DNA of 64,000 nucleotides from Comamonadaceae bacterium. GTDB taxonomy: Bacteria; Pseudomonadota; Gammaproteobacteria; Burkholderiales; Burkholderiaceae_C. Under the pieces are notes generated by a model. That model had not been told where the DNA came from. It was given only the letters and a program-made list of their open reading frames with translations, and did no database searches. The DNA is taken from positions 1-64,000 of the forward strand of contig JAAFIY010000005.1 in assembly GCA_013297985.1 (NCBI GenBank). The letters run 5' to 3'. The translations under genes and the position numbers were made by a program. Positions 17,861-64,000 of this stretch are shown piece after piece. Every line of letters begins with the position of its first letter. The stretch's first letter is position 1.

Positions 17861-17911
17861 ACTTGGAGGCGCGACCCGGAGTCGAACCGGGCTAGACGGA
17901 TTTGCAATCGC
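17861..17911. other. attL, 51-bp attachment repeat (left copy)
   Basis: The 51 bases are identical to 24928-24978. They include the last 46 nt of a tRNA-Cys gene on the minus strand, from the anticodon loop to the encoded CCA. The bases on both sides differ between the copies, which sets the repeat limits. Confidence 0.92.
17864..17909 (-). pseudogene. tRNA-Cys 3' fragment
   Basis: On the minus strand this reads GATTGCAAATC (GCA anticodon loop), variable region, GGTTCGACTCC T-loop and GCGCCTCCA. The 5' half (acceptor strand, D-arm) is missing, so this is not a functional tRNA. It is the displaced 3' half left by integration; the intact gene should lie beyond the last integrated element, right of this window. 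Confidence 0.88.
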
Positions 17912-18042
17912 ACCTCTGTGCTATTTGCCCGTGTTGATTGTGGTAGATATAATCTATTCAAATCAACAGCTTACGTGATTTTAACTGGCTATGCAGCCAG
18001 CCCAAGCGTTGATTGAAATTCCGTTGTTTTGGTCAAAAAGTC

Positions 18043-18061
18043 TTACATCCGCCCTTACATC
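18043..18061 (+). other. Candidate integrase arm-type sites, left end
   Basis: Two direct copies of TTACATC, 12 bp apart (18043-18049 and 18055-18061), lie between the attachment repeat and the integrase gene. The right end of the element has the same pair with the same spacing. They are natural candidates for integrase arm-binding sites. Confidence 0.55.
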
Positions 18062-18092
18062 CTGGCCGATGTGAGACCACAGGGAAGGCTAC

Positions 18093-19385
18093 ATGGCAAA
18101 GAATGCGTTCACCGCTGGCCGGGTTGCTGCTTTCAGATGCCCGCCTGACCGGCAACAGGCTTTCATCTGGGACACGACCGCGCCGGGGCTGGGGCTCAGG
18201 GCCACGCCAGCGGGTAAGCCCGCCTACGTGTTTCAGGGCCGGTACCAAGGCAAAGACATTCGCTTGACTATCGGGAGCCCTGCAGCTTGGACCATCCCGC
18301 AGGCGCAGGCCAAAGCACGCGAGCTGCAGCGCCTGATTGATGAAGGCAAAGACCCCCGCGTGGTGAAGGCTGATGCGACCGCTGCCGACTTGGCAAGCCG
18401 GGCAGAGGCAAAGCGCCAGAGCGTGACAGTCAGCGAAGCATGGGCCGCCTACGTGCAGGAACGTCGGCCCCATTGGGGTGAGCGCCACTACCTCGACCAC
18501 ATTGCGAAGGCCGCCCCCGGCGGGGTGATGGGCAAGCGCAGCAAGTTGCTGCAGCCGGGCATCTTGGCACCCTTGATGAACAAGCCCCTGCGCGACCTGA
18601 ACAGCGCCGCCATCGAAGCATGGGCCGCCCGCGAAGCAAAGACCCGCGCGACTTCTGCCCGCCTGGCGTGGCGACTGCTCAAAGCCTTTCTAGGCTGGTG
18701 CGCCGAGCAGCCCGCCTACGCTGGTGCCGTGCCAGACAAAAACCCAGCAAAGTCCAAGAAGGCCCGCGAGTCATTGGGCCGCCCTGGCGTCAAAGCTGAC
18801 GCGCTGCAACGCGAGCAACTGCCCGCCTGGTTCGACGCCGTGAGGGGCATTCACAACCCGGTGGTGGCCGCATACCTGCAAACCGTGCTGTTAACCGGAG
18901 CACGGCCCGGTGAAGTGCTAGAGATGCGTTGGGAAGACCTCAACACCAAGTGGAAGGGCCTGACCATCCGCGACAAGGTGGAAGGCGAGCGCACCGTGCC
19001 GCTTACCCCTTACGTGGCGCACCTGCTGGCCGCCCTGCCCCGCCGCAATCAGTGGGTGTTTTCTGGTGCCCGCGCCGACGTGGTGGCCGCCCCCAACGAA
19101 CTGCACGCCCGGGCCTGTGGCGTGGCCGGTATCGACGGGCTTTCCCTGCACGGCCTGCGCCGCAGCTTCAAAAGCCTGACCGAGTGGCTTGAAATCCCCG
19201 CTGGGGTGGTGGCGCAATTGATGGGCCACAAACCCAGCGCCACCGCCGAACGCCACTACACCGTGCGCCCGCTTGACCTGCTGCGCGTGCACGCCGAACG
19301 CATCGAAGCGTGGGTGTTGGAACAGGCTGGGGTGCCGTTTGATGCCAAAGCCGCCGCTCCTGGTGGGTTGCGAGTGGTGGGCTGA
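18093..19385 (+). CDS. int: Tyrosine recombinase integrase of the satellite-like element
   Basis: A 430-aa site-specific recombinase. The N-terminal DUF4102-like domain (residues 1-90, arm-binding) is followed by a core-binding domain and the catalytic domain with Arg271 (TGARPGE), His353 and Arg356 (HGLRRS), His379 (MGHKP) and Tyr389 (RHYTVRP), the complete catalytic set. The gene starts 180 bp inside the left attachment repeat and reads into the element, as expected for tRNA-targeting island integrases. It should recombine the tRNA-Cys 3' repeat. Confidence 0.96.
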   Translation: MAKNAFTAGRVAAFRCPPDRQQAFIWDTTAPGLGLRATPAGKPAYVFQGRYQGKDIRLTIGSPAAWTIPQAQAKARELQRLIDEGKDPRVVKADATAADLASRAEAKRQSVTVSEAWAAYVQERRPHWGERHYLDHIAKAAPGGVMGKRSKLLQPGILAPLMNKPLRDLNSAAIEAWAAREAKTRATSARLAWRLLKAFLGWCAEQPAYAGAVPDKNPAKSKKARESLGRPGVKADALQREQLPAWFDAVRGIHNPVVAAYLQTVLLTGARPGEVLEMRWEDLNTKWKGLTIRDKVEGERTVPLTPYVAHLLAALPRRNQWVFSGARADVVAAPNELHARACGVAGIDGLSLHGLRRSFKSLTEWLEIPAGVVAQLMGHKPSATAERHYTVRPLDLLRVHAERIEAWVLEQAGVPFDAKAAAPGGLRVVG

Positions 19386-19410
19386 TTTGTAAACCAACGC
19401 TTTACGCTCT

Positions 19411-19689
19411 ATGATTCTGTCATTCCGGCACAAAGGGCTAGAAGCCTTTTTTAGAACAGGCCGCGTGGCAGGCATTCAGCCCATGCACGCCAAGCGCTTG
19501 CGCGAACTGCTGACCGCCCTGAACGCCGCCACCGGGCCGCAAGACTTGGGCCGCCCATCGTGGCGGGTGCATGGCCTGTCGGGTGACCGGGCAGGTTTTC
19601 ATGCCGTGACGGTGCAAGCCAACTGGCGATTGACCTTCCGGTTTGTGGGTGCCGATGTAGAGCTACTGGACTATCTGGACTACCACTGA
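19411..19689 (+). CDS. higB: HigB-type toxin (RelE/ParE superfamily)
   Basis: A 92-aa protein with the HigB signature: the FRHKGLEAFF N-terminus, AGIQPMHAKRLRELL, and the C-terminal NWRLTFRFVGADVELLDYLDYH. HigB toxins are ribosome-dependent mRNA endonucleases. The toxin comes first and is followed after 10 bp by its antitoxin, the usual inverted order for higBA. It starts 25 bp after the integrase. Confidence 0.92.
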   Translation: MILSFRHKGLEAFFRTGRVAGIQPMHAKRLRELLTALNAATGPQDLGRPSWRVHGLSGDRAGFHAVTVQANWRLTFRFVGADVELLDYLDYH

Positions 19690-19699
19690 GAGGCGCACC

Positions 19700-20011
19700 G
19701 TGAACATGCACAACCCCGCCCACCCTGGCGAGCTGCTTTCGGGCTGGCTTGAAGACCTGCAAGTGACCGTGACCGCGTTTGCCCTGCACATCGGCATTAG
19801 CCGCGTGATGCTGTCCCGCGTGTTGCATGGGCATGCTGCCGTGTCCGCTGATATGGACCTGCGCCTGTCCGAAGCCTTGGGCACCACGCCTGGCTACTGG
19901 CTGGCACTGCAAACCCAGCGTGACCTATGGACAGCGCGGCAGGCCGCCAAAGAGCGCAAGCGCATCAAGCGCATGGCCCTACCGCTGGCTGAGATTGAAC
20001 CTGCCACCTGA
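19700..20011 (+). CDS. higA: HigA antitoxin (XRE-family HTH)
   Basis: A 103-aa protein with the HigA motif HPGELLSGWLEDLQVT and a Cro/C1-type helix-turn-helix around ISRVMLSRVLHG, then SEALGTTPGYWLALQTQRD. It should bind HigB and repress the operon. The start is GTG at 19700 with GAGAGG upstream; an ATG at 19706 is an alternative. It probably stabilises the element in the host. Confidence 0.92.
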   Translation: MNMHNPAHPGELLSGWLEDLQVTVTAFALHIGISRVMLSRVLHGHAAVSADMDLRLSEALGTTPGYWLALQTQRDLWTARQAAKERKRIKRMALPLAEIEPAT

Positions 20012-20134
20012 CAGCTTCAGGCTTACTGATTGAGTTTTCGCCCCAGCTAGGCAGGGCCGCAATCCTGCTGAAAAGCCATGCTCCCCGTGGCCTGCTGGTG
20101 GCACCTTTGCCGGGGGCGATGCACGGGGAGTGCA

Positions 20135-21382
20135 ATGACCGACTTTGTGGCGACGCTGTACGTCAACCCAAACCGAGTTTATTGGCGGGCAAGTGACGTT
20201 CCCGGCCTGTTGGCCCAAGCCCTGCACCCAAGTGACGCGCCACCAGACCCGATGGTGAGCAGGACAGAGCTTCGACGCTTTGCATCGGCTGATGCACTCG
20301 CCAGCAAAGCCGGGCCACAGTTGACAAAAGCGGAACTCGCGGATTTGGACCGCGCCTGCAAAAGCGAGGGCTTGCCAGCCCTGCCGAACGAACTTCCATA
20401 CAGCGAGTGGGGGCCATTCCTTGACGCCAGCAACACAGGGGCTGAACGGCGCGGCTGGTGGGCCGGGCTGATACCACCTGCTGACCCTGACGAAACCCAG
20501 CGGTTGGCTGCTGTTTTGTACGAAGAACAGAACACCAAGAAGTTGCGCGAATGGCTGAACTCAGGTCGGGTGCAGGCAAAGATTGCCGGTAGTTTTCTGC
20601 CCGCAGATGTGCCTTTGACAACGCAGCTTTCAAATCTGGTGCTGATGCGTGATGACCTGGAGCGATTCGCAGCGCTGGCACAAATCCAAGTGAAGAACGC
20701 CTGGCCGCAGACGATGCCCAACGGCCCCGACTACTGGACAATCGAAAACGCTTTTGCTGACCTCGCGAAGCAAGCGGGATTGCACGAAGGGGCACGCGAC
20801 ACCCTGCGCGACGACATGATGCAAGCTGCGAGCGATGGCACGCTGACCGTTCGCCACCCTCACACTGGCAGGGCCTATCGGCCCAAAGTAGTGCGAGGGT
20901 TCTACGAACTGGTGACGCCCGCCGACGTGAATGCGTGGTTGGCGACTGACCCAGGCGCAAAGCTTCGATGGCAAGCAGGGCCCAGTTCAACCGATGGCAC
21001 CAAGCATCGTCACGACCAAGCTGGCGCGGAGGCTGCGCCCGTGTCTGAAAACGGCCCCAGCCATGCGACCGACGGGAGCGATGCATGCGAAGTGGCGAAC
21101 AGCGCCACGCCAGCAACTCAAACCCCAAATCAGCGCCGCACCTGGCGGGACGTTGCAGGTCGCTACATCGTCGATGTGATTCGCGCCGGGCAGTACGGGA
21201 CTGCGAAGGAACTCTACAAGGCCCTGGAGGCAAAGGCCGGACCAGAGTCCCCGTTCGAAAAAGGAACCGGCCTCAACCGTGGCAGGCTTTTTGTGCGTGA
21301 GCTTACCAGACACCTGAGCCAAAAGACGGTTCAAACCAATTGGAAAGCACTGCGGGAGCTAGCTGCAAAAAAGCTGCCCTGA
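20135..21382 (+). CDS. Unrecognised element cargo protein
   Basis: A 415-aa protein from the ATG at 20135 (GGGGAG 5 nt upstream). No family was recognised. Residues 1-200 contain a SEWGPF segment and an acidic/Asn-rich helix region. Residues 215-265 resemble a compact DNA- or protein-binding domain. Residues 275-335 are a Ser/Thr/Ala/Pro linker. The last 75 residues form a separate helical domain (TWRDVAGRYIVDVI...TAKELYKALEAK...SQKTVQTNWKALRELA). There is no signal peptide or membrane segment. It lies between the toxin-antitoxin pair and the regulator, where satellites often keep accessory genes. No function is claimed. Confidence 0.8.
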   Translation: MTDFVATLYVNPNRVYWRASDVPGLLAQALHPSDAPPDPMVSRTELRRFASADALASKAGPQLTKAELADLDRACKSEGLPALPNELPYSEWGPFLDASNTGAERRGWWAGLIPPADPDETQRLAAVLYEEQNTKKLREWLNSGRVQAKIAGSFLPADVPLTTQLSNLVLMRDDLERFAALAQIQVKNAWPQTMPNGPDYWTIENAFADLAKQAGLHEGARDTLRDDMMQAASDGTLTVRHPHTGRAYRPKVVRGFYELVTPADVNAWLATDPGAKLRWQAGPSSTDGTKHRHDQAGAEAAPVSENGPSHATDGSDACEVANSATPATQTPNQRRTWRDVAGRYIVDVIRAGQYGTAKELYKALEAKAGPESPFEKGTGLNRGRLFVRELTRHLSQKTVQTNWKALRELAAKKLP

Positions 21383-21469
21383 TGCCCGCAGTGCCCGCCG
21401 GGCACACAGGGCACACCGGGCAAAGAGATTCACCGCACGGCGCAAATCAACGCGCCGCAAAGGTGAACT

Positions 21470-21805
21470 ATGAACTCCAAAGCGCATCACTGCGCAGGCC
21501 AGCGGCAGGGGGTGACAGACCCAGCCGCAGCCCGCGAGAGTGACACCCAAGGCCCTATCAACGCCGCCACGCTGGCCGCACATGAAAAACGGGGTGGTTC
21601 TATCAGCGGGCTATTCACGCCGCTGGAACGTGAGACCCGAGCGGCCCTCGACACCGAATCAGCCGCCCACCACCTGAATCGTGAGCCGCAGACTTTGCGG
21701 GTTTGGGCATGCCGCCAGAGCGGCCCTATTCGCCCGTTGCGGATTCATGGCCGACTGGCATGGCCGACAGACGCAATCCGGCAGCTGCTGGGCGTGGCCC
21801 AATGA
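21470..21805 (+). CDS. AlpA-like HTH DNA-binding protein
   Basis: A 111-aa protein whose C-terminal half (residues 58-110: LDTESAAHHLNREPQTLRVWACRQSG, then PLRIHGRLAWPTDAIRQLL, split here) fits a MerR/AlpA/excisionase-like winged helix with the typical R-I-x-G-R-x-x-W wing. Such proteins act as excisionases or activators in islands. Its stop overlaps the start of the next gene (ATGA), marking the first step of a translationally coupled operon. Confidence 0.75.
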   Translation: MNSKAHHCAGQRQGVTDPAAARESDTQGPINAATLAAHEKRGGSISGLFTPLERETRAALDTESAAHHLNREPQTLRVWACRQSGPIRPLRIHGRLAWPTDAIRQLLGVAQ

Positions 21806-22146
21806 AAAACGCCCGCGACACCCAAAAGAGCGAAGCGAGCGTAGCCGTGGGGGCTGCACCGATTGTCACGAAGTTCTCAGGCACCGACAACCCCCGCCAC
21901 CTGCGGGCCATTGCCGCACTGTTGCGCCGCCCGATGCCACGCGAAAGCCTCGACCGTGAGGTCGGCTGCGCGAACGGCCCCGAGCTGGTGGCAGAGCTGC
22001 GCCGCCGTGGCCTAGCCGTGCCCTGCAAGCGTATCAACTTTGTGGACCGCGATGGGTTCATTTGCAGGCCCGGCGTTTACTTTCTGACCGAAGGCGACCG
22101 CCGCAAGTTGTACCGCTGGCAGGCCACTCGGAGCGCGACGCAATGA
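21802..22146 (+). CDS. Small island protein, HTH-like, unknown function
   Basis: 114 aa from the ATG at 21802, which overlaps the previous stop codon. The segment RHLRAIAALLRRPMPRESLDREVGCANGPELVAELRRRG looks like a winged helix preceded by a basic helix; the C-terminus VDRDGFICRPGVYFLTEGDRRKLYRW matches small proteins found beside satellite replication genes. The next gene again overlaps by ATGA. Confidence 0.7.
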   Translation: MKNARDTQKSEASVAVGAAPIVTKFSGTDNPRHLRAIAALLRRPMPRESLDREVGCANGPELVAELRRRGLAVPCKRINFVDRDGFICRPGVYFLTEGDRRKLYRWQATRSATQ

Positions 22147-22520
22147 CCATCGAAGCCTTGATTGTCGGCACGCTACACCAGCCCGCCGAGCAACGCACCG
22201 CCAAAACCGGCAAGCCGTTTGCGACCGCCAAGGTCCGCGCTGCCGCTGGCGACGGTCAAAGCGTTTTCGTCAACGTCATTTGCTTTGCAGACCCGGTGCG
22301 CGCAGCGCTGATGGCAATGGACGGGGGCGATTCTCTGGCGCTCACTGGCACCTTGACGCCCGGCGCATGGATTGACCGCGACGGCACTGCCCGACCCAGC
22401 CTAAGCATGGTGGCCGCGTCAGTCATGACCTTGTACGCCTTCACAAAGAAGCGCGCCGCCATCGCTCAGGCCGGGACTAATGCCGCACCGGACGATGACA
22501 TTGCCGGGGGTGCCCTATGA
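22143..22520 (+). CDS. SSB-like OB-fold protein
   Basis: 125 aa from the ATG at 22143. The pattern ALIVGTLHQPAEQRTAKTGKPFATAKV, then VNVICFADPV and GDSLALTGTLTPGAWIDRDG, is the beta-barrel layout of single-stranded DNA-binding/PriB-like proteins in mobile elements. It lacks the acidic C-terminal tail of replication SSB. It sits immediately before the Rep-like gene, which fits a role in replication of the element. Confidence 0.75.
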   Translation: MTIEALIVGTLHQPAEQRTAKTGKPFATAKVRAAAGDGQSVFVNVICFADPVRAALMAMDGGDSLALTGTLTPGAWIDRDGTARPSLSMVAASVMTLYAFTKKRAAIAQAGTNAAPDDDIAGGAL

Positions 22521-22648
22521 GCCGCATTGTCATCGTGGCGGCCACCTGGTGGCCCTTTGGCGTGGTCGCGCTGCCACTTGTACAGTTCTTGGCGTTTTGG
22601 CTGGCTGGCTCGGAGGCTGCGCAGGTGCTGACGCAGTGCAGCCCGTGA
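22517..22648 (+). CDS. 43-aa single-span membrane peptide
   Basis: A short gene whose ATG overlaps the stop of the SSB-like gene (ATGA) and whose TGA overlaps the GTG start of the next gene (GTGA). The peptide starts MSRIVIVAATWWPFGVVALP and has one hydrophobic helix covering most of its length. The double start/stop overlap is the main evidence that it is translated. Function unknown. Confidence 0.6.
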   Translation: MSRIVIVAATWWPFGVVALPLVQFLAFWLAGSEAAQVLTQCSP

Positions 22649-23586
22649 GTCGCAAAAAACGTGGCAAGGGCACCAGTGACCGCGATGGCGACGCCTTTGT
22701 TGCGCTGCCGTGGGTGGTTTTGGACAGTGCGGCTTTCCAAAGCCTGAGTCACCCTGCCCGTAGCTTGTTGCTGGAGGTGGCACGCCAGTACGGGCGCAGC
22801 AACAACGGCAAACTGCTTTGCAGCGCCGCCTATCTGAGCAAGCGGGGCTGGAACAGCGCTGGCGTGATTCATCGCGCCTTGCGTGACCTAATCGACCGGG
22901 GCCTTTTGCACATGACCGTGCAAGGGCATCGACCCAACAAAGCGAGTTGGTTCGCGCTCACGTGGTACGCCATTGACCACCTTCCCGGATACGACATCGG
23001 GGCGCTCGAAACCTTCCCCCGCTCCGCTTATCGGTTTTGGCAACCGCCACCCAAAAACGCCTGCCTTAGTCCTTCAGAAGCAGTAGCAAGGCCCGCCATT
23101 GCTCCTTCTCCGAGAGTAGAGCACCCCTCGCTTACTCCTTCAGAAGGAGCTATCAAGGCCCCAAACGGCACCCCGCCTACTCCTTCAGAGAGACACCATC
23201 TAGATATGCCATCTCCTGCTGCAACTGAATCGGGTGTGTTGGCAGCGCAGGCAATCAAGCAAACGGTGCAAACGCCCCAAGCGCTCACGGCGGCACAGAA
23301 GGCGGGGCCGGGGCTGGCCAAGGGTTCCGCCGGTCAACTTGCTGGCAAAACGCAGGACGGTCAAGCGGTCGTTGTTGAAGACCGCCTGAAAACAGCCCCG
23401 ACTTTGGCCCAAGCTGGAATTAGCAAAGACCTATCTTCGCGCGCTCAAAAGCTGGCCGCTGCCAAAGCTGCCGAGCAAAACGCCCGACAACCCAAGCGCC
23501 CCAAGCCAGCGCTGCCGCCCGCCATCGTTGCCCGTGCGGATGGCTGCACCGTTGAACGCGACGCCGCACTACCCGCTGATTGGTGA
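22645..23586 (+). CDS. Rep-like winged-helix protein of the element
   Basis: 313 aa from the GTG at 22645. Residues 5-130 (DAFVALPWVVLDSAAFQSLSH..., GKLLCSAAYLSKRGW, RALRDLIDRGLLHMTVQGHRPNKASWFALTW) form a winged-helix domain of the type found in replication or regulatory proteins of islands and plasmids. The C-terminal half is a low-complexity linker with three PSE(G/R) repeats, encoded by palindromic CTCCTTCAGA boxes, then a Lys/Ala-rich tail. The boxes may serve as replication-origin repeats. No primase or helicase motif is visible. Confidence 0.7.
   Translation: MSRKKRGKGTSDRDGDAFVALPWVVLDSAAFQSLSHPARSLLLEVARQYGRSNNGKLLCSAAYLSKRGWNSAGVIHRALRDLIDRGLLHMTVQGHRPNKASWFALTWYAIDHLPGYDIGALETFPRSAYRFWQPPPKNACLSPSEAVARPAIAPSPRVEHPSLTPSEGAIKAPNGTPPTPSERHHLDMPSPAATESGVLAAQAIKQTVQTPQALTAAQKAGPGLAKGSAGQLAGKTQDGQAVVVEDRLKTAPTLAQAGISKDLSSRAQKLAAAKAAEQNARQPKRPKPALPPAIVARADGCTVERDAALPADW
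23068..23193 (+). repeat. Palindromic CTCCTTCAGAAGGAG boxes inside the Rep-like gene
   Basis: Four related boxes occur at 23068-23080, 23101-23116, 23134-23149 and 23179-23193. The third is a near-perfect 15-bp palindrome; the others keep one arm and part of the other. Spacing is 32 to 45 bp. They are in frame and encode the PSE repeats. Confidence 0.6.
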
Positions 23587-23596
23587 GCAACCTACG

Positions 23597-24241
23597 ATGC
23601 CCCGCAAAGCCACACCGCCACCCACCACACCCAAAAGCCACCACCTGCAGCTTGAGGCACGCCCTGGCGTCAGTGAGGACCGCCTGATGACCGACCTGCT
23701 GGCACAAGGCAAAATCGCCAGCGCTTGCACCGTGGTGCAGTTTGCAGCCCCTGTGCATGGCGAGGTGTCGCTAACCGACCTGATGCAGTCGCTGCGCCAG
23801 CAGGGCGAGGCCGTCAATCGTGGCGACTTGCGGGCTGCTGAATCCATGCTGAACGCCCAAGCCGTGGCACTGAACGCCATCTTTGGCGAACTGGCACGCC
23901 GCGCCGCTGCGCACATGGGCGGCAACATCCGCGCCGCCGAAACGTATCTGCGCTTGGCACTCAAGGCCCAAAGCCAAAGCCGCGCCACGGTTGAAACGCT
24001 GGCCGCCATCAAAAACCCGCCTGTGGTGTTTGCCCGGCAAGCCAACATTGCCCACGGGCCGCAGCAAGTCAACAACGGCGCGCCCGCGCACCCGGGGCAA
24101 AGCGTTTCTGAGCCCAACGAAGTTTTTGAGGAAGCAAGCCATGCCCGCCCGCAACTGGACGCCGCAGCAACGCCAGCAACAAGCCGAGCGCATTCACAGT
24201 TGGAGCCCATGGAAGCAAGCCACCGGCCCGCGCACGGCTGA
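23597..24241 (+). CDS. Island protein of unknown function
   Basis: 214 aa from the ATG at 23597; the frame is open upstream to 23528 inside the preceding gene. A central helical region (residues 25-150: DRLMTDLLAQGKIA, LMQSLRQQGEAVNRGDL, AESMLNAQAVALNAIFGELARRAA, AETYLRLALKAQSQSRATVETLAAIKNPP) resembles a small family seen next to integrases in betaproteobacterial islands. The tail is Pro/Ala/Ser rich. It overlaps the next gene by about 100 bp. Confidence 0.7.
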   Translation: MPRKATPPPTTPKSHHLQLEARPGVSEDRLMTDLLAQGKIASACTVVQFAAPVHGEVSLTDLMQSLRQQGEAVNRGDLRAAESMLNAQAVALNAIFGELARRAAAHMGGNIRAAETYLRLALKAQSQSRATVETLAAIKNPPVVFARQANIAHGPQQVNNGAPAHPGQSVSEPNEVFEEASHARPQLDAAATPATSRAHSQLEPMEASHRPAHG

Positions 24242-24341
24242 AGGCAAGGCCCGTGCGTCACGCAACGCCTTCAAGGGCGGCACCCGCCGATTGCTGCGCG
24301 AACTGGCGCGGCTGTTGAAGGCCCAACGAGACGCGATTTAG
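24141..24341 (+). CDS. Small basic island protein
   Basis: 66 aa. The composition is typical of a conserved short protein found beside the previous family: NWTPQQRQQQAERIHSWSPW, then TGPRTAEGKARASRNAFKGG and a basic Leu/Arg helix at the end. The ATG lies within the end of the preceding gene in another frame. Probable nucleic-acid binder by charge only; function unknown. Confidence 0.65.
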   Translation: MPARNWTPQQRQQQAERIHSWSPWKQATGPRTAEGKARASRNAFKGGTRRLLRELARLLKAQRDAI

Positions 24342-24828: not shown

Positions 24829-24847
24829 TTACATCTGCCATTACATC
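24829..24847 (+). other. Candidate integrase arm-type sites, right end
   Basis: Two copies of TTACATC (24829-24835, 24841-24847) repeat the pattern found at 18043-18061 with the same 12-bp period, same orientation and a shared intervening gcc. Confidence 0.55.
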
Positions 24848-24889: not shown

Positions 24890-24927
24890 TTGTCACTCCT
24901 AAGTGTTTGATTCACATGGAGTTTTTT

Positions 24928-24978
24928 ACTTGGAGGCGCGACCCGGAGTCGAACCGGGCTAGACGGATTTGCAATCGC
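24928..24978. other. Shared attachment repeat (attR of element, attL of prophage)
   Basis: Second perfect copy of the 51-bp tRNA-Cys-derived repeat. It is followed by unrelated phage sequence and not by the tRNA 5' half, so another element must be integrated to its right. It therefore closes the satellite-like element and opens the large prophage. Confidence 0.88.
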
Positions 24979-41404: not shown

Positions 41405-42802
41405 TCAGGTAGTGGCGATGCGCAGCAGTTTGATGGCCTGGGTATTGCGCAGGCGGCCGCCCACGCGCTTGCGCACGTAGAACTTGACGAAGCCGGGGCT
41501 GGTGATTTCGTCGCGGGTGATGCGCATGCCCACGCGGTCGGCGATCAGATAGCCTTCTTTGAAATCACCAAAGGCCAGCGGGAAGGCGTTGGCCGCGACG
41601 GCGGGCATGTCTTCGCTTTCGGTGATGCCGTAGCCCAGGAAGCTGGCGGGCTGACCGGGGGTGAGCGCGGGCTGCCAGAGGTATTGCCCCGCCGTGTCTT
41701 TGTATTTGCGCATGGCCGCCAGCACCAGTTTGTTGGTGACCCATTGGGCGTTGGCGCGGTAGCGGGCACGCAGGCTGTACACGATGTCATAGAACACGTC
41801 GATGCTCGAAGGCATTGCGGCTGCCTGGCCGCCAATGATGTACTGCAGCGTGCCAAAGGCGCGCGCACCGTCACCGGTCGTAACGGGTGCGGGGCCCGCC
41901 AAGAAGCCGGTGGGGCGCTTGGTGCCGTTGCCCAACACAAAGGCCGTGCCTTCGCCTTGGGCCATGGCTTCGGCGGCGGAACTGATGAGCCAGCCTTCGA
42001 CGTCGAAGAACAAATCGTCCAGCGATTCCTCAGACGCTTGGGGTTTGGCGCTAGCCATGCCGAAGGTGGGAGCAACTTCGACCAGGTCGGGGGTGTTGGT
42101 TTGGTTGCGGTTGTCGGTTTCGCCAACCCACTCAAAAGCAGCGCCGTTGACGTCGAACAGCTCTTTGTAGTCGGGTGAACCGACGGTGCGCACGGTGGCG
42201 ATTTGACGAATGGGCGAGATGTCAACCGAGAGCCGCGCAATAGACGCCTCGATTTGCTCAGGCAAGGCAAAACCGCCTGCGCTGCCGGTGGTGGTAACGG
42301 CTTGGGTGGCGCGGGTTTCGCGGTCGCCGGCCTGCTTGGATTTGGCTTCGAGTGCTTTGGCGGCAGCGTGAGCGCGTTGCTGGCGGTCAGGCGAGGTGGG
42401 GGCGCGCGCCCAATCGAGAAAGGCGTGGCGGTATTCAATGGCTTCGGGGCTTTCGCGGCCTTCCGTGCCGCCCTGGCCACCACTGAGGGCACCGGGGCGG
42501 GAGAGCTTGGTTTCCATCTTCTCCAGCTTGGCCTTGACTTCGCTCAAGCTGTTGAGGTGTTCGTCCATGCGGGCGAGCTTGGCGTCCAGGTCACCGGTGG
42601 CTTTGCCGGCTTTGACGGCTTCGATGCGGGCGTCGTTGGTTTTCTTGTATTCGTCAAATGCGGTGGCGATTTTGTCCAGCGCTTCGGCGACGGATTTGAG
42701 GGTGGGGTCGTCGCGGCGTTCATACACGTGGATGGCTTGCGCTTTGGCGCTGAAGGCGGCCATGTGTAGGGCCATGACGGAGAGGATGCTGAGCGATTTC
42801 AT
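41405..42802 (-). CDS. HK97-family major capsid protein
   Basis: 465 aa from the ATG at 42802. Residues 30-145 form the helical delta (scaffold) domain (VAEALDKIATAFDEYKKTNDARIEAV... LDAKLARMDEHLNSLSEVKAKLEKMETKL). From residue 165 the HK97-fold capsid body follows (ALPEQIEASIARLSVDISPIRQIATV, then GNGTKRPTGFLAG). The scaffold is expected to be cleaved by the adjacent protease. A GTG at 42817 is an alternative start. Confidence 0.94.
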   Translation of the reverse strand: MKSLSILSVMALHMAAFSAKAQAIHVYERRDDPTLKSVAEALDKIATAFDEYKKTNDARIEAVKAGKATGDLDAKLARMDEHLNSLSEVKAKLEKMETKLSRPGALSGGQGGTEGRESPEAIEYRHAFLDWARAPTSPDRQQRAHAAAKALEAKSKQAGDRETRATQAVTTTGSAGGFALPEQIEASIARLSVDISPIRQIATVRTVGSPDYKELFDVNGAAFEWVGETDNRNQTNTPDLVEVAPTFGMASAKPQASEESLDDLFFDVEGWLISSAAEAMAQGEGTAFVLGNGTKRPTGFLAGPAPVTTGDGARAFGTLQYIIGGQAAAMPSSIDVFYDIVYSLRARYRANAQWVTNKLVLAAMRKYKDTAGQYLWQPALTPGQPASFLGYGITESEDMPAVAANAFPLAFGDFKEGYLIADRVGMRITRDEITSPGFVKFYVRKRVGGRLRNTQAIKLLRIATT

Positions 42803-42813
42803 AGAGCGGGCTT

Positions 42814-43512
42814 TCAAGTGGTGGGGGTGAGGGACGCCAGCAGCCGCTGAGCGGCGTGCAGGGCGGTGCGGGTGGCGGCGGCGGAATCACTCCGCGCTTG
42901 GCCCAGGGCCATGACGCGCGACACAAAGGCGGTGGCGTCGGACTTGCTGAACCCGGCATCGCGCAGGGCTCGTTCAGCGTCTTTGGGACTGGCGAGTTCG
43001 TCGGCCGCTTTGACTTGGGTAATGCGGGCTTTTTCGTTGGCGGGGAAGGTGACCAGGCTGACTTCCCACAAATCGATTTCAGTGAGGGTGCGCACATCGG
43101 TGTCGCGGCCGTACGTCCATTGCTTGCTCATGAAGCCGATGCTTAAGCCGTTGAGCGCGCCAAATTTGAGCAGGGCGTGGGCTTCTTTGCCTTTGACGGT
43201 GGCCAACGCGAGTTGACCTTTGATGCGCAGGCCTTTGTCGTCTTCAGCCATGTCGGTCCAGATACCGATGGGCTGGTCGGCGCTGTGCTGCCAGAGCATG
43301 GCTGGCATGGTGCCAGCGGCTTTGTGGGCGGTCAGGCTGGCGAGGAAGGCACCTTTGGCAATGACGTCGTCGTAGTTGTCGCGCACGCCGAAGACGCTGC
43401 CGTAGCCTTCGATGGTGCCGTCGTCTTGGGCGCGGACTTCTAGCGCGAAGCTGCGCACCTGGCGGGCGCCGGGGGCGGTGGCTTTGCGCTCAAACATGGG
43501 GCGGTGTTTCAT
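42814..43512 (-). CDS. HK97-family prohead protease
   Basis: 232 aa. Catalytic His76 (MLWQHSADQPIG) and Ser124 (LNGLSIGF) are present with the family core RSFALEVRAQDDGTIEGYGSVF. The protease matures the capsid. The C-terminal part contains a helical region (DAERALRDAGFSKSDATAFVSRV). The gene ends just before the capsid start, as usual. Confidence 0.93.
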   Translation of the reverse strand: MKHRPMFERKATAPGARQVRSFALEVRAQDDGTIEGYGSVFGVRDNYDDVIAKGAFLASLTAHKAAGTMPAMLWQHSADQPIGIWTDMAEDDKGLRIKGQLALATVKGKEAHALLKFGALNGLSIGFMSKQWTYGRDTDVRTLTEIDLWEVSLVTFPANEKARITQVKAADELASPKDAERALRDAGFSKSDATAFVSRVMALGQARSDSAAATRTALHAAQRLLASLTPTT

Positions 43513-44983: not shown

Positions 44984-46605
44984 CAGGGGTTGCCGTAGGT
45001 GTGGCGGGTGACGGTGCGGGTGATTTCGGCAGCGTCGTCACGCTCGACGGTCTGCACGCTTTCGGTGGGGCCGGTGACGGTGACAGTGGCAGGTGGCAAA
45101 TTGGCTTCAAAGGTAACCTGGGGGGCCGCCACATGGACCACGGGCGCGGCAACGTTGACCACGGGCGCGGGCTGTTGCGGGACGTTGACGGTGATGGGCG
45201 GTGTTTGCACGGCTTCGCGGATGTGGGCGGCGGCCTGGTCCGAGATGGTTTGCAGGGCGTTGGACACAGCGCTTTCGATGTGGGCGGTTTTGACGTCCAA
45301 ATGAAAGTTGTGCTGGGCAGGCACTGGGACGGCGCGGCTTTGCTCGACGGTGGCTTTGAGGGCTTTGAGCTCGGCTTGCAGCCAGGCTTTGTGGGCCTTG
45401 GCTTCTTCTTCGGCCGTGTCGTCTTGCTGGCCCTGGGTCATGTTCAGGGGGGTGAGGGGTTCGTCCAGGCCGGGCAATGGGTCTTTGCCTTCTTCGTCGC
45501 GCAACTCATTACGGGTGTAGACGCCCATTTCAGCCATGGTGCGCGCCCAGGCGGCGCGGTCTTTCATGCTGCCTGCCATCAAGTAGCGGGTGTCAAAGCC
45601 CGCAAACAGGGGGCCAGCGCCGTCGAGCAGGGTTTCGTCAATGCGCTGGGTCCAGGCTTCGTGCCAGGGGGCCAGGGTGTGTTTGACGTGGGCCGCAAAG
45701 AAGGCTTCAGAGCTGGCGAAGGTGGCGCTTTTGTCGCTGTGCCCAACCATGATGGGAAACACGCCGTAGGCGCGGCAGATTTCTTCGACCTGCAAGCGGC
45801 GGGTTTCGACGTGTTGGGCGTCTACCCCAGTTAAGCCGGTGCTGAGCCATTTGGCCGCACGGTCGAGGATGAGGGGGATGCCGGTTTTGTCAGGCCCAGA
45901 ACTGCGCTTGAGGAAGGTGGTGAGGCGTTCGTGCTGCTCGGGGGTGAGGGTGCCATCGACGCTGTACAAACCGCTGGGCCGCAGGCCGTTGGCGTGCATG
46001 GAGGCTTGGCTGCGCTCGGTGGCCAGCGCCAGGCCAATGGCGCTGCGAGCGAGCACGACGGCGTTGAGACTTTTGACCCAATCCCACTGAACGTTGTTCA
46101 GCAAGAAGACATCGTCAGGGTCGAATTCACCGATGAGGCCGAATTCGTCCCAGCAGCGGTAGCGCAGTTCATAGCGGGCGGTGCGGCGCACGTCCCACTG
46201 GCCGGGCATGACGGGGATGAGTTCGCGCACGCGGCCGTTGAGGCCCTTAGACTTGATGGACAAACCGGTGCCGGTCAGTGCGGCATGAATGGTCATTTGC
46301 CGCCGCCACTCGAAGCTGGTTTGCCATTCGTTGGGGCGGCGAGCCAGCAAGCGGTACTCAGGCACGTTGAGTGCGAGCTGGCGGGTGGCACCCGCAGTGC
46401 CACGGTAGACGTGCAGCTTAGGGGTTGCGCAGCCGTCAGCTATGGCTTTGACGCACGCGAACACGGTGCTGACCTGCAAAGCAGTCTTGTCATTGACGGC
46501 GACGCCCGCCACGCTGCCGCCTTGCCAGCCGTCAATAAGGCCCGCGACCTGGTCATAGGTGAGCTGGGTGGCCTTGCGCCCAAAAAACCAGTCGAGGATT
46601 TTCAA
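44983..46605 (-). CDS. HK97-family portal protein
   Basis: 540 aa from the TTG at 46605, whose last base pair overlaps the terminase stop (TTGA). Sequence begins LKILDWFFGRKATQLTYD; the portal core contains TALQVSTVFACVKAIADGCA, the NDVFLLNNV-type region and the GLTGVDAQHVETRRLQVEEICRAYGVFP clip segment. The last 120 residues are a repetitive Val/Pro/Ala beta tail (VNVPQQPAPVVNVAAPVVHVAAP). Portal forms the DNA entry channel. Confidence 0.93.
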   Translation of the reverse strand: MKILDWFFGRKATQLTYDQVAGLIDGWQGGSVAGVAVNDKTALQVSTVFACVKAIADGCATPKLHVYRGTAGATRQLALNVPEYRLLARRPNEWQTSFEWRRQMTIHAALTGTGLSIKSKGLNGRVRELIPVMPGQWDVRRTARYELRYRCWDEFGLIGEFDPDDVFLLNNVQWDWVKSLNAVVLARSAIGLALATERSQASMHANGLRPSGLYSVDGTLTPEQHERLTTFLKRSSGPDKTGIPLILDRAAKWLSTGLTGVDAQHVETRRLQVEEICRAYGVFPIMVGHSDKSATFASSEAFFAAHVKHTLAPWHEAWTQRIDETLLDGAGPLFAGFDTRYLMAGSMKDRAAWARTMAEMGVYTRNELRDEEGKDPLPGLDEPLTPLNMTQGQQDDTAEEEAKAHKAWLQAELKALKATVEQSRAVPVPAQHNFHLDVKTAHIESAVSNALQTISDQAAAHIREAVQTPPITVNVPQQPAPVVNVAAPVVHVAAPQVTFEANLPPATVTVTGPTESVQTVERDDAAEITRTVTRHTYGNP

Positions 46606-48305
46606 GGCGTTTCCCAGAAGGAGGTTTCGGTGGTGGTGCCAGCCAGCGCACGTCCGAAGGCCATCAGCATGGCCATGGGGCTGTCGATCTTGTTTTCTTC
46701 GCGCTCTTTGGTAGGGCTCTTGAGCTCGTTGAACTTGGAGGTGAGCACAACCAGGTTGCTCATCATCCAAGTCATCAGGGGGTTGCCGTCGTGTTTGAGA
46801 CGGCCGCTTTTAACCAGGGCTTCGACTTGCAGCAGGGGCTGGGTGTAGAAACTAGAGCGCTGGGTGATTTCGACCATGGGCAAGCTTTTTTCAAGCAAGG
46901 TGCGGGCGAAGTAACCGGCCAGCGCGGGGTCATAGGCGGCTTCGCGCAGGTTGTGGGTGTCGCGGTCGCGCAAGAGGTCGGCGGCAATGCAGTCAAAGTC
47001 GGTTTGGTTGCCGGGATTGACTTGGACGTGTCCTTCAGCGATCCAGCCGCTGAGCTGGGCGATTCTGGTTTCAGCGGCTGCGACTTCGTTGTAGTAAATG
47101 CGGGTGAACACGTGCCAAATGCCGCCGCGTTCAATGACTTTGACTTTGGCGGCAAAATCGTGTTTTTCAGCCAAGTCCATGCCGGTGAAGGCTTCGCAGT
47201 CGGCAAAGTCGGCTTCGCGCAAGTTGGGGTCGGCGCAGGCGTTCCAGGCTTCCATGTCCATCCAGGCCACCCCGGCGTTGGTCCAGACGTTGAGGTGTTT
47301 GGTAAGGAAATTACCGCGCGCGGATGGGGTCGCAAGAGCTTTAGCACAAGCGGCTTCGAGCTTGTCTCGCTTGACGCTGATGCCTAAATTGGGGTTCGCT
47401 TTGCGCCAGATGGCTGGGTCTTTCCAGTCGTCTTTTTCGTCGATGGTGTAGATGACACCGAACCAGGTGTCATCGGTGTGGGTGTTTTCAAGCACCTTGA
47501 CGGTGTAGCCGCGTAGCTCGTAGCCGATGCCGCCGGTGTCTTTGCCGGCGGTGGTGATGGCGCTGATGAGGGGCTGCGATCGCGAGCCGTCGGCGGATTC
47601 AATGACGTCCCAGAGGTCACGCTTTTTATGGGCGTGCACTTCGTCGACGATGCCGCCATGGACGTTGAGGCCATCCTGGGTGGAGGCCTCGGCGTTCATG
47701 ATTTTGAAAGTGCTGGCGGTAGCGGCACAGGTGATGTCGTGCTTAGCCGGGTCAGCACCAAAGCGCGCGCGAAACTCGCTGTCGCGCAAGGTCATTTGCC
47801 GCGCTGTTTCAAAGACGGCTTTGGCCTGTTCGCCAGTGGTGGCGGCGCTGTAGACCTCTGCCCCTGGCTCATCGTCGGCAAAAGCTAGGTACAGGCCACG
47901 CCCAGCCGCGCGGGTGGACTTGGCGTTTTTGCGGGCGATTTCTTCATAAGAGCGCCTGAAGCGGCGCAGTCGGGTGTCGACGTGCACCCAGCCAAAAAGC
48001 TGGAACTCGACAAAGATCTGCCAGTCTTCGAGACGAATCTTGGCGTAGGTGACCATTCCGTCTGCATAGACGGGCTTGGCCCATTCGCCTTTGATGTGGC
48101 ACAGCAGTTCTTGAAACTGGCAGGCGCGGCCACCCAGGCGGACGTCAATGACGTAGGGGAAGCCTCGGGTGTTTTGGCGCTCAAGGTCTTTTAGAAACCG
48201 CTTGCAGGCGAGGCGTTCGTATTTGCCGCAGGTCTCGGCACCACCGACGACGCGTTTGGCGTAGGCCTGGGCGCGGTCGAAATACTCGGCGTGCGGTCGG
48301 GACAT
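46602..48305 (-). CDS. Terminase large subunit
   Basis: 567 aa from the ATG at 48305. The Walker-A-like ARKNAKST motif (residues about 108-115), an AFADDEPGAEVYSAATTGEQA segment, acidic VHGGIVDEVHAHK Walker B region and GMDLAEKHDFAAK nuclease-type motif are those of phage terminase large subunits that cut and package DNA. Ends within the portal start. Confidence 0.94.
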   Translation of the reverse strand: MSRPHAEYFDRAQAYAKRVVGGAETCGKYERLACKRFLKDLERQNTRGFPYVIDVRLGGRACQFQELLCHIKGEWAKPVYADGMVTYAKIRLEDWQIFVEFQLFGWVHVDTRLRRFRRSYEEIARKNAKSTRAAGRGLYLAFADDEPGAEVYSAATTGEQAKAVFETARQMTLRDSEFRARFGADPAKHDITCAATASTFKIMNAEASTQDGLNVHGGIVDEVHAHKKRDLWDVIESADGSRSQPLISAITTAGKDTGGIGYELRGYTVKVLENTHTDDTWFGVIYTIDEKDDWKDPAIWRKANPNLGISVKRDKLEAACAKALATPSARGNFLTKHLNVWTNAGVAWMDMEAWNACADPNLREADFADCEAFTGMDLAEKHDFAAKVKVIERGGIWHVFTRIYYNEVAAAETRIAQLSGWIAEGHVQVNPGNQTDFDCIAADLLRDRDTHNLREAAYDPALAGYFARTLLEKSLPMVEITQRSSFYTQPLLQVEALVKSGRLKHDGNPLMTWMMSNLVVLTSKFNELKSPTKEREENKIDSPMAMLMAFGRALAGTTTETSFWETP

Positions 48306-48312
48306 GGTGGGG

Positions 48313-48885
48313 TCAGTCGAAGTCGGCAAATCCTTTGGGGCTTGCGGGAGCCGCTGTGGGGCTGACTTCATTGGGCTTGTCGCCGCCCTCGCCCTCAAAC
48401 AATTGCAACTGGGCGCGAATGGCGGTGGTGACGTTGGCCTGCTCGGACGGCGACAGACCGAACTTGGCCAACAGCGACAACATCATTTGCCGTTCGCTTT
48501 TGAGGATCTGGTAGCGCGGGTGTTGCTGCGGCATGCCGTTGGGGGTCAGCACCTCAAAGGCTTCCATGGGGTCATGACCTGAGGCGCGCAGCTGGTTTTG
48601 TTTTGCGCGCAGGGCGTGGCGCAGCGCCTTGACGTCGGCGACGGTTTCGCACAGCTCTTCGAACACGTCGCTATAGACGGCCGAGATCAGGTTGTAGCGC
48701 AGCAGCTCGGCGCTAAGGCGCTTCCAAACCTTGCGCGCACCCGGGCTCAAGCCTTTGGGGATTCCGGGCAGACCAGCTTCAGGGCGAAAAGTTGAATCTA
48801 GGTTCACCGCCAGCGGACGCTTGCCTCGGTTGCCTTCGAGCAGCTTCAGCTCAGTTGGCTTTGCTTGCGGTCCGCGCTGGCCCAT
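48313..48885 (-). CDS. Terminase small subunit, P27-like
   Basis: 190 aa. GQRGPQAKPTELKLLEGNRGKRPL is the P27-family N-terminus; SPGARKVWKRLSAELLRYNLISAVYSDVFEELCE follows. It recognises the packaging site. It is separated from the large subunit by 7 bp. The 107 bp upstream (48886-48992) hold a C-run and an AT-rich piece that could be part of the packaging site. Confidence 0.9.
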   Translation of the reverse strand: MGQRGPQAKPTELKLLEGNRGKRPLAVNLDSTFRPEAGLPGIPKGLSPGARKVWKRLSAELLRYNLISAVYSDVFEELCETVADVKALRHALRAKQNQLRASGHDPMEAFEVLTPNGMPQQHPRYQILKSERQMMLSLLAKFGLSPSEQANVTTAIRAQLQLFEGEGGDKPNEVSPTAAPASPKGFADFD

Positions 48886-48992
48886 ATCGTTCCTTTGCTA
48901 CCCCCCCACCCCCCCAAAACCTGCGCACGTAAAAATTTGGCGAACAGGTCGGTTTCCAGCGGAAAGGGGCAGACTTTGAAGGCCCCCTCCCC

Positions 48993-49367
48993 CTACGGGT
49001 CGCGGTAGCCAGCCCAGGCGCGGGCCACGCCGCGTGTGCGCTCGGATTCGCTCTTGCTCGCGTGGCACGGCTCGCACAAGCCCTGCACATTCGCCGCATC
49101 ATCCGCGCCGCCCTCAGCCAGCGGGATGATGTGGTCGCGCTGGCTTGCCAACGTCACCTTGCCCTGCGCCTGGCACAGCACGCACAGTGGCTGACGCGCG
49201 AACAGCTCAGCACGCAGCGCCTGCAGCTTGCGCCCGGTGACGCGCTTGGTCGCCGTGACGGGCTTAGCCCACTGCGCCTTGGGATGCTTGGCGCACCGGC
49301 TTGAGCCATCGCGCACCAGCACGCCGCACCCCGGGTGAGAACAGGGTTTGGGTGGAGTGGCAGGCAT
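48993..49367 (-). CDS. HNH endonuclease
   Basis: 124 aa from the ATG at 49367. Zinc-binding CxxC pairs (PLCVLCQAQG and GLCEPCHASKS) flank the HNH core QRDHIIPLAEGGADDAANVQGLC. HNH proteins beside the terminase are needed for DNA packaging in HK97-type phages. It follows the late promoter and terminator region. Confidence 0.9.
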   Translation of the reverse strand: MPATPPKPCSHPGCGVLVRDGSSRCAKHPKAQWAKPVTATKRVTGRKLQALRAELFARQPLCVLCQAQGKVTLASQRDHIIPLAEGGADDAANVQGLCEPCHASKSESERTRGVARAWAGYRDP

Positions 49368-49411
49368 GACAACACCCGAAGCGGCTGGACTACATGGCAA
49401 GCCCCAAAAGC

Positions 49412-57147: not shown

Positions 57148-57167
57148 CGCGACCCTGCTTGGGCTTG

Positions 57168-57468: not shown

Positions 57469-57520
57469 GCTATCACGCCCCCCCGACAACACCCAACCGG
57501 GTGGGGGCCAAGGATGCACA

Positions 57521-58157: not shown

Positions 58158-58167
58158 GGGGCCAGCC

Positions 58168-59204: not shown

Positions 59205-59244
59205 GCCCACCCCTATGACTCACGCATTCCACAGGCCCCACCCC

Positions 59245-61985: not shown

Positions 61986-62446
61986 CCGACCCCACCCAAG
62001 CCCACACCCAAGCCCCCACCACCCTTGCCCAGGCCAGCCGTGAGCAAGCCCTCATGCTCGCGCTGCACACCGTGGCCCAAGAGCTGGCGGACCGCTGTCG
62101 CGCCCACCTGGTGCAACGCGGCCTGCCCTCAGCCGAAGTGCGCCTGCCCCTCAGCTTCACCGGCACCGATCTGCGCGTGAACATCCAAGCCGGGCCCGAA
62201 GTGCGCGCCCGCAACCTGGCCGACGAAGCGCTGGCCGAAGCCAGCGGCCAGCGGCCCCATACCCCGCTGAACATGGCCCACACCGTATTTGAAGCCCAAG
62301 CCCTGCTGCGCGCCTATGCCGGTGAACTGCAGGCCACCGTCTTTGCCGCCAACGCAAGCACGCTGGCCACGCAGAACGCCGCCACCGTGCACGGCCACGC
62401 CCTGCGCGTGGCCCGCGCTTTGGACGTGGTGAGGAGCCACCTATGA
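61982..62446 (+). CDS. Helical early phage protein
   Basis: 154 aa from the ATG at 61982, which overlaps the previous stop. Rich in Ala and Leu helices with a short PLSFTGTDLRVNIQAG beta hairpin. No family recognised; the next gene overlaps by ATGA. Confidence 0.55.
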   Translation: MTDPTQAHTQAPTTLAQASREQALMLALHTVAQELADRCRAHLVQRGLPSAEVRLPLSFTGTDLRVNIQAGPEVRARNLADEALAEASGQRPHTPLNMAHTVFEAQALLRAYAGELQATVFAANASTLATQNAATVHGHALRVARALDVVRSHL

Positions 62447-62913
62447 GCGCCATTCCACCGCCCGGGCTGGCCGGTTCAGTGTTTGGGTTTTTCAGCAATA
62501 ACCCCGAAAAGATTCGCAGCCTGCGCCACCTGGCCAGGATGTTCGCGGTGGATGAAGTCGACCTGTGGCGCGAGCTGCAGCCGCTGGTGGCGACGGGCCA
62601 ACTCGCCCATTGGCCAGACCACCTCGACGATGAATGGGTGTACGGCCACCCGAGCTGCAGCAACGTGCCCAAGCACACCGTCGTGATCAACGGCAAGGTC
62701 TGCGCGGGGCCACTGCGGCGGGCACCACCCCATGGCACCCCCATCTACCTGCCCAACGCATTGATGCCCGACAGACCACATTTGGACACGTGGAACGTTG
62801 ACGTGTACGACGGCGCGCTGAAAAGAGGCTTCGTGTTCACCAACCGAGAAGCCGCTATCGCAGTCGCCGGGGCCATGACCCAGCCCCTATGGGATTTTTG
62901 CCATGCTCGTTAG
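62443..62913 (+). CDS. Early phage protein with HTH-like region
   Basis: 156 aa. SLRHLARMFAVDEVDLWRELQPLVATGQLAHW is helix-turn-helix-like; the rest is alpha-beta with NREAAIAVAGAMTQPLWDF at the end. Overlaps both neighbours. Function unknown. Confidence 0.6.
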   Translation: MSAIPPPGLAGSVFGFFSNNPEKIRSLRHLARMFAVDEVDLWRELQPLVATGQLAHWPDHLDDEWVYGHPSCSNVPKHTVVINGKVCAGPLRRAPPHGTPIYLPNALMPDRPHLDTWNVDVYDGALKRGFVFTNREAAIAVAGAMTQPLWDFCHAR

Positions 62914-63169
62914 CACCGCCCTTGAAGTAACCGGCGCCGCCCTGGGCCTGCTGGGCGCGCTGCTCTTGGCCACCCAATCGCGCCACGCCCCTTGGGCCTG
63001 GCTGCTCTGGCTGGCCAGCAACGCCTGCTGGGCCGCATTTGCGGTGCTGGGCAGCTACTGGTTTTTGTTGGCCCAGCAAGTGGGCTTCAGCCTCACATCG
63101 GCCATCGGGCTGTGGGTGTGGTTGCTGCGGCCGGCCCTGGCGGCACGTCAGCAACGGAGGGGACTATGA
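62903..63169 (+). CDS. Small PnuC-like membrane protein
   Basis: 88 aa with three hydrophobic helices: VSTALEVTGAALGLLGALLLA, PWAWLLWLASNACWAAFAVL and FSLTSAIGLWVWLL. The fold and the W-rich central helix resemble half of a PnuC nicotinamide riboside transporter, found as small phage proteins. Transport function is not shown. Confidence 0.65.
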   Translation: MLVSTALEVTGAALGLLGALLLATQSRHAPWAWLLWLASNACWAAFAVLGSYWFLLAQQVGFSLTSAIGLWVWLLRPALAARQQRRGL

Positions 63170-63714
63170 GCAGCGTTGAACATCGAGTGCGTCCGACGAT
63201 CTTGCTGGCCAGCGGCCGGTACTTTGACTTGCTGGACCCGCGCGGGTCTGGGTTTGATGAGTACGACGTAGCCCATGCGCTAGCGAACATCTGCCGCTTC
63301 AACGGCCATTGCCGCGAGTTCTACAGCGTGGCGCAGCACTCCGTGTTGGTCAGCCATGTGGTGCCGCCTTTGGATGCGTTCGCGGGCCTGATGCACGATG
63401 CAGCCGAGGCGTTTCTTGGTGATGTCACCAAGCCGCTGAAAGGCTTGCTGCCGGACTACAAAACGCTGGAGCGGCGCGTAGAGCTCGACGTGTTTGCCCG
63501 CTTTGGTTTGCCACCTGAACTGCCCCAGTCGGTCAAAGATGCGGATCTGGTGCTGCTGCGCACCGAGCAGCGTGATCTGATGCACAAGGATTCGGGTTTG
63601 TGGACGATCACCGAGGGCTTTGAGCCTCTGCGCCAGGTGATCAAGCCGTGGCCACCCAAGGTGGCGCGGGTGCGGTTTCTCAAGCGGTTTCGGGTGATCG
63701 CCAGCCATGCCTGA
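63166..63714 (+). CDS. HD-domain phosphohydrolase (YfbR-like)
   Basis: 182 aa from the ATG at 63166 with GGAGG upstream. The metal motif is present: AQH (His58), MHDAAEAF (His77, Asp78) and VKDADL (Asp). This fits nucleotidase-type HD proteins that act on deoxynucleotides. It may adjust nucleotide pools during replication. Confidence 0.82.
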   Translation: MSSVEHRVRPTILLASGRYFDLLDPRGSGFDEYDVAHALANICRFNGHCREFYSVAQHSVLVSHVVPPLDAFAGLMHDAAEAFLGDVTKPLKGLLPDYKTLERRVELDVFARFGLPPELPQSVKDADLVLLRTEQRDLMHKDSGLWTITEGFEPLRQVIKPWPPKVARVRFLKRFRVIASHA

Positions 63715-64000
63715 CGCCCTCGCCATCCTCACCGCCGAAGACGCCGCGCCGCTCTTGCGCTGCGAGCCCACCACCATGGAAGAGCACGCCCGCAGCGGCT
63801 TCTTGCCCGCCGTCAAGATCGGCCGCACCTGGCTGTTCCCCCGCGCCGCGCTTGAGGAGCGCCTGAACGAGCTGGCCCGCCAGAACGTGCCCGCACCTGA
63901 TGGCGCGCCCACCACCGCCGCAGCGGCCGCACCCACCGCCGCGCCCACTCGCGCCAGGCGCACCACACGGGGCCACCAAGCGGCCGCTGTGCTGCGATCG
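63707..64000 (+). CDS. HTH/excisionase-like protein, cut by window edge
   Basis: 98 codons visible with no stop before the edge. LTAEDAAPLLRCEPTTMEEHARSGFLPAVKIGRTWLFPRAAL is a MerR/excisionase-like winged helix with the typical R-T-W-x-F wing, then an Ala/Thr/Pro tail. It is placed at the end of the early operon, where an excisionase or integrase-associated protein is expected. Confidence 0.78.
   Translation, partial: MPDALAILTAEDAAPLLRCEPTTMEEHARSGFLPAVKIGRTWLFPRAALEERLNELARQNVPAPDGAPTTAAAAAPTAAPTRARRTTRGHQAAAVLRS

Follow-up and report, generated by a model that had tools for sequence, protein, structure and literature searches.

Integrative mobilisable elements (IMEs) are often found in tandem with other elements, including prophages, and the partners in such tandems carry distantly related integrases of similar specificity (PMC5704250). 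Among small phage-associated islands, the layout of the cfPICIs has been outlined (PMC11389934), and PICMIs are packaged as eight copies per full-size head (PMC10803314). Among phages, VarioGold has 10-nt 3′ cohesive ends, CGATCGGTTC (PMC9658991). Here we analysed a locus at which a small island and a prophage lie side by side at a tRNA-Cys gene. The window, meaning the whole 64-kb stretch of DNA analysed, comprises bases 1-64000 of a contig that runs to base 69,901.

Three copies of a tRNA-Cys attachment core

A preliminary description of the window had reported two perfect 51-bp repeats carrying the 3′ part of tRNA-Cys, neither followed by the tRNA 5′ half, and had read the second repeat as the left end of another element. 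Sequence comparison within the window confirmed that the copies at 17861-17911 and 24928-24978 are identical and that the 5′ half is absent after either of them, and ARAGORN detected no tRNA-Cys in the window. The identity of these two copies consists of a 46-bp core plus five flanking bases. The core, TGGAGGCGCGACCCGGAGTCGAACCGGGCTAGACGGATTTGCAATC, corresponds to nucleotides 29-74 of tRNA-Cys(GCA), that is, the 3′ part of the tRNA, and is present on the contig in three exact copies (17864-17909, 24931-24976 and 65673-65718), which is far beyond chance (~2e-17 pairs expected for three exact 46-mers in 70 kb, by a rough estimate). The third copy had been predicted to lie past base 64000 with an intact tRNA-Cys and an integrase, and all three were found: the copy is contained in an intact tRNA-Cys(gca) gene (65673-65746, minus strand) 1.7 kb beyond the window, the gene for a 376-aa prophage integrase lies beside it (64379-65509, minus strand), and tRNA-Gly, lon and clpX follow beyond the tRNA.

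The cores delimit an island of 7,067 bp (7.07 kb) and a prophage of 40,742 bp (40.74 kb), both measured core to core, so that two elements of differing content do share one attachment sequence. The core at 17864-17909 is the attL of the small element. That at 24931-24976 is a middle att site, whose left side belongs to the island and whose right side belongs to the prophage, which is closed by the matching core at 65673. A core thus flanks the pair on either side and another separates the two elements, and one of the outer cores lies in the intact target gene. Each element encodes its own integrase of matching specificity, as judged by the location of relatives.

In relatives of the family, the usual gene order is tRNA-Leu(TAA), tRNA-Cys, tRNA-Gly, lon, clpX. 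In 15 of 20 loci compared, no more than a few hundred bases separate tRNA-Leu from tRNA-Cys, and this interval holds two tRNA-Gly genes at most; many relatives have tRNA-Leu, tRNA-Cys, tRNA-Gly and lon without a large insertion. Here, tRNA-Leu(taa) (9428-9520, minus strand), normally a close neighbour of tRNA-Cys, is separated from it by 56 kb comprising a sox cluster, the island and the prophage. The sox (thiosulfate oxidation) gene cluster (9555-17778, minus strand) encodes SoxZ, a molybdopterin oxidoreductase, cytochrome c, a protein with a 5′-nucleotidase C domain and an ArsR-type regulator; none of the 20 relatives examined showed a comparable cluster at this locus. As no old att remnant was found to its left, we treated the sox cluster as chromosomal flank outside both elements.

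We consider tandem accretion of two independent elements at the tRNA-Cys 3′ end to be very probably the origin of this arrangement. The 7.07-kb island would have integrated with its own 430-aa integrase, and the 40.74-kb prophage would have entered at the same 46-bp core with its different, 376-aa integrase. Because the prophage is located between the island and the intact tRNA, its insertion was most simply the later one. Each attP would have carried the tRNA 3′ sequence, restoring the tRNA each time and leaving a core copy on the distal side. The site would be shared because two integrases, which align at only ~24%, independently use tRNA-Cys. We infer this order of insertion, as we do the excision, replication and carrier of the island considered below.

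The island, its relatives and its mode of transfer

Arm-type repeats on the plus strand mark the left end of the island (TTACATCCGCCCTTACATC, 18043-18061) and its right end (TTACATCTGCCATTACATC, 24829-24847). As direct repeats, TTACATCnGCCnTTACATC, they occur within the window only at 18043 and 24829, with none expected by chance, so both ends are apparently intact and belong together. A AAGTnnTTGATT-like motif is located at 24901-24912, just before the core, and also in the right arms of L123, L139, L148 and L154; the elements that carry it there come from different genera and comprise islands as well as prophages.

All island genes lie on the plus strand. The integrase (18093-19385), a 430-aa tyrosine recombinase with an arm-binding domain, is followed by a HigB-like toxin (19411-19689), a HigA-like antitoxin (19700-20011) and an uncharacterised protein of 417-434 aa (20078-21382; start uncertain) without a family match. 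Next comes a small HTH protein (21470-21805), a probable excisionase or AlpA-like regulator that is conserved in islands with this type of integrase and weakly matches phrog_66 (E 0.046). A 147-aa protein (21703-22146), an SSB-like protein (22143-22520), a Rep-like protein that is probably a replication initiator (22480-23586) and an uncharacterised protein (23528-24241) complete the set; a second frame overlapping the last gene (23883-24341) also has a relative. Functions of Rep, the HTH protein and HigBA were assigned from their families. The conserved core of Rep spans approximately residues 41-170 of the 352-aa reading that starts at 22528; its predicted structure, of low confidence (pLDDT 54 overall), shows helices and then two strands, and the core had no significant fold or sequence match in the PDB. 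The island would excise via its own integrase, probably together with the small HTH protein, and would probably replicate with the Rep and SSB-like proteins, with HigBA probably stabilising it.

Family searches of the island proteins recognised no TerS, capsid or size-redirection gene, no MCP, portal, protease, HNH or TerL, and no match to the psu, sid, delta, epsilon or alpha families of P4-like satellites (PMC8628076). Likewise, Pfam revealed no relaxase-like gene, and the three proteins tested for defence functions had no PADLOC match.

Relatives of the island integrase are encoded at 38 loci of GTDB species, most of which have a ~46-50 bp tRNA 3′ piece upstream of the integrase gene (Lys, His, Met, Ser or Thr tRNAs). 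The closest relative, from a Rubrivivax MAG (L113), is 86% identical and is associated with exactly the same 46-bp tRNA-Cys core. Twelve islands of 3.7-10.4 kb could be delimited among these loci, at other tRNAs and with a similar compact architecture; within the stretch covered, none of the 12 had a further copy of its own tRNA piece. Their shared backbone consists of the integrase, the HTH gene, in many cases a toxin-antitoxin (TA) pair, and a replication gene, which encodes a D5-type primase, a PriCT/Toprim protein, a phage GPA-type Rep or the Rep of the window island. The remaining content varies and includes cargo, for example IetAS or methyltransferase genes: a Cupriavidus island with an integrase of the same family (L118, 14988-18582) has an IetAS-type defence pair, and a type II methyltransferase is located at 13760-15427 of L125.

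A second island of ~5.4 kb is present at a tRNA-Ser in the same genome (L065; contig C21, 3431-8957). Its 422-aa integrase belongs to the same broad family as that of the window island, and over 147 bp it matches part of the window-island Rep gene at 93% identity, which suggests exchange between islands. Single-protein searches of IMG/VR returned no relatives of the island or prophage integrase; a profile search with the island integrase returned 24 loci, some near phage structural genes. On four IMG/VR contigs (L217, L201, L219 and L224), island-integrase relatives are accompanied by HTH or Rep genes, and phage structural genes come next (protease, portal, tape measure, baseplate hub).

Family-wide searches used one genome per species in an even draw of 301 genomes. 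The Rep-like protein had matches, some of them partial only, in 37 other genomes. It is 57-60% identical to the Rep proteins of L066 and L071 and 47% identical to that of L076, all three encoded in cfPICI-like islands that carry head genes and come from members of the same bacterial family. The cfPICI-like L066 and L071 carry MCP, portal, protease, HNH and TerL. L066, a 13.05-kb island at a tRNA-Gly, combines Int, an excisionase/AlpA-type protein, a small wHTH protein, a topoisomerase-like protein and Rep (phrog_270, replication initiation, E 1e-5) with head and packaging genes for MCP, protease, portal, HNH, TerL, adaptor and head closure; no tail gene was recognised in it. We take this layout to be that of a cfPICI. 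At the far end of L066 (424-1674), one reading frame appears HipA-like by eye. The small wHTH protein that precedes Rep in L066 shows weak similarity to the second half of the 147-aa island protein (36% identity across 64 aa; E 2e-7, from a single comparison). The island HTH protein did not align with its AlpA-like counterpart in L066. Judged by these matches, the island shares part of a cfPICI-like backbone, without the head module.

The earlier label 'satellite-like' is therefore borne out for Rep and, weakly, for the wHTH protein, both common to cfPICI-like islands, and finds no counterpart in a recognised packaging or capsid gene. We suggest that the island may well travel with some phage, as its satellite or as a hitchhiker, and we give a satellite-type carrier an even chance; this reading rests on Rep, the weak wHTH match and the island architecture, with no packaging gene, pac or cos recognised. 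More tentatively, and as a rather doubtful proposal, the island might belong to a new betaproteobacterial satellite lineage in which an Int-HTH-wHTH-Rep backbone, common with cfPICI-like elements, exists in headed and headless forms that swap tRNA targets and cargo. If so, the present locus, with a headless member next to a prophage, would offer a natural pair for testing. The Rep family ties headless tRNA islands to cfPICI-like islands in this bacterial family, which suggests where the search for a helper should start.

A conjugative element, instead of a phage, might move the island, which would then be an IME. IMEs commonly form tandems such as this one (PMC5704250), and four island relatives (L065, L120, L131 and L146) have in common a family of 350-409-aa proteins, of which the L120 member weakly matches Mob_Pre. 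However, this match is below the family cut-off, and the Pfam search for a relaxase described above was negative for the window island. We therefore regard an IME as an unlikely identity for this island; conjugative mobilisation of the wider island lineage is possible.

The neighbouring prophage and the remaining alternatives

The right neighbour, previously described as an HK97-type prophage reaching the window edge, has a complete HK97-type gene set and extends from 24979 through the end of the window at 64000 and on to contig base 65672. It encodes endolysin, tail, tape measure and connector proteins, the major capsid protein (41405-42817, minus strand), protease, portal, TerL (46602-48398, minus strand) and TerS (48313-48885, minus strand); the other genes encode Q-like, primase/helicase, CII-like and ParB-like proteins, a CI-like repressor and the integrase. 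Alignment with VarioGold and Aval located the cos site at 48918-48957 (minus strand), with a predicted 10-nt overhang, CGACCTGTTC, adjoining an HNH endonuclease-like frame (48993-49400, minus strand). With TerS, TerL, portal, protease, MCP, connectors, tail genes and a conserved cos, the element is assigned to the HK97-type cos siphophages. Its TerL is 73% identical to that of Acidovorax phage Aval (OP131589) and 70% identical to that of Variovorax phage VarioGold (OP296522). Relatives of the prophage integrase were detected in 13 other genomes; five adjoin tRNA-Cys, in five other genera (L154-L157 and L166), and some others adjoin tRNA-Val or tRNA-Lys. At the tRNA-Cys site of two genomes, a single distal core copy lies 37.5 kb (G207) or 39.6 kb (G011) away, indicating that single occupancy of the site occurs.

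The preliminary description had also proposed that a satellite and its likely helper share the site, pointing to co-mobilisation or competition. As a helper, the prophage would induce the island and package its DNA into its own virions. The prophage cos, however, has no match in the island above shuffled sequence (best 24/40; shuffles 23-26), and neither the island nor its relatives contained this cos above background. Adjacency at one site and an island Rep of satellite type favour a helper, yet DNA and proteins common to the two elements amount to chance-level pieces, with no common genes beyond the distantly related integrases, and the island lacks a recognised gene for TerS, capsid or size redirection. 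The prophage also encodes the sole HK97-type TerL found in this genome (a weak second match, on contig C110, belongs to another TerL family), but island-type integrases and this TerL co-occur at chance level in the 301 family genomes (3 genomes shared versus 2.9 expected, P 0.58), and relatives of the island occur without those of the prophage and vice versa. A joint excision product would measure 47.8 kb, or 117% of the phage genome; one island on its own amounts to 17%, and full-size heads would need approximately six copies. Moreover, resident prophages are often not the helpers, as in a strain whose resident satellite was mobilised by none of its 17 prophages (PMC11389934).

These failed tests strongly lower the case for the prophage as helper of this island, which we now consider quite improbable, and they leave room for the island as a possible satellite of another phage. 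To see satellite and helper in neighbours at one site is tempting, and the tests made did not bear it out. Movement of the island as a satellite or hitchhiker would accordingly run by a route other than this prophage's cos. Competition between the two elements for the tRNA-Cys site is possible; their tandem occupancy shows that the presence of one does not shut out the other.

It is very improbable that island-only and prophage-only versions of the site were joined through the 51-bp repeat during assembly. The assembly is a draft (193 contigs, 90% complete), the repeat spans no more than 51 bp and our analysis drew on the assembly alone, but all three junctions are oriented as sequential integration predicts, the arm repeats are paired at the island ends, and the contig continues via tRNA-Gly, lon and clpX as in relatives. 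That the island is a decayed prophage remnant, as its small size and phage-type integrase might suggest, is hardly credible, as both ends are intact with arm repeats, its int, TA, HTH and rep genes are open, and a similar compact architecture recurs in the 12 delimited islands.

Comparison with known systems

PICIs have a unique, specific attachment site (PMC6092414), whereas the site of the island is common with the prophage. Compared with the PICI set of Int, AlpA-type regulator and primase/rep, the island has Int, an HTH protein with a weak family match and no alignment to its counterpart in L066, and a Rep assigned by its relation to L066. PICIs are also induced by phages and specifically packaged; for the island, the observation on this point is that it lacks the cos of its neighbour. 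With the cfPICIs, it has in common a Rep related to those of L066 and L071 (57-60%), preceded by a small wHTH gene of weak similarity; cfPICIs, however, have their own capsid, portal, terminase and connector genes, which are present in L066 and were not recognised in the window island. The gene set of P4-like satellites (PMC8628076) is likewise not that of the island. Of the IME hallmarks, relaxase or oriT, no relaxase family was matched in the window island, and one relative has the weak Mob_Pre match. PICMIs (PMC10803314) and the tmRNA islands transduced by a jumbo phage (PMC12595487) are similar to the island in being headless, with Int, a small HTH regulator, cargo and no recognised packaging genes, and PICMIs also have a replication gene. 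They differ from it in hosts, sites and protein families, and their helpers are known.

Like the prophage, VarioGold and Aval have HK97-type head genes, a conserved cos beside an HNH gene, and primase, ParB-like and CII-type genes. The att of VarioGold is 15 bp at a tRNA-Ser, whereas the prophage uses the 46-bp core of tRNA-Cys.

Tandem accretion also links the locus to described IME, ICE, CIME and prophage tandems (PMC5704250), which are similarly arranged head to tail around a chimeric middle att, and whose tyrosine integrases have one specificity although they are only distantly related. In contrast to those tandems, the pair here consists of an apparently complete cos prophage and a small satellite-type island, a combination not described there. 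Tandems of this kind are thus already documented, and the present one is a new, well-resolved case: a clean tandem of two elements whose integrases are both assignable, via relatives in other genera, to one tRNA-Cys core, and thus a suitable case for studying the sharing of one site by two recombinases.
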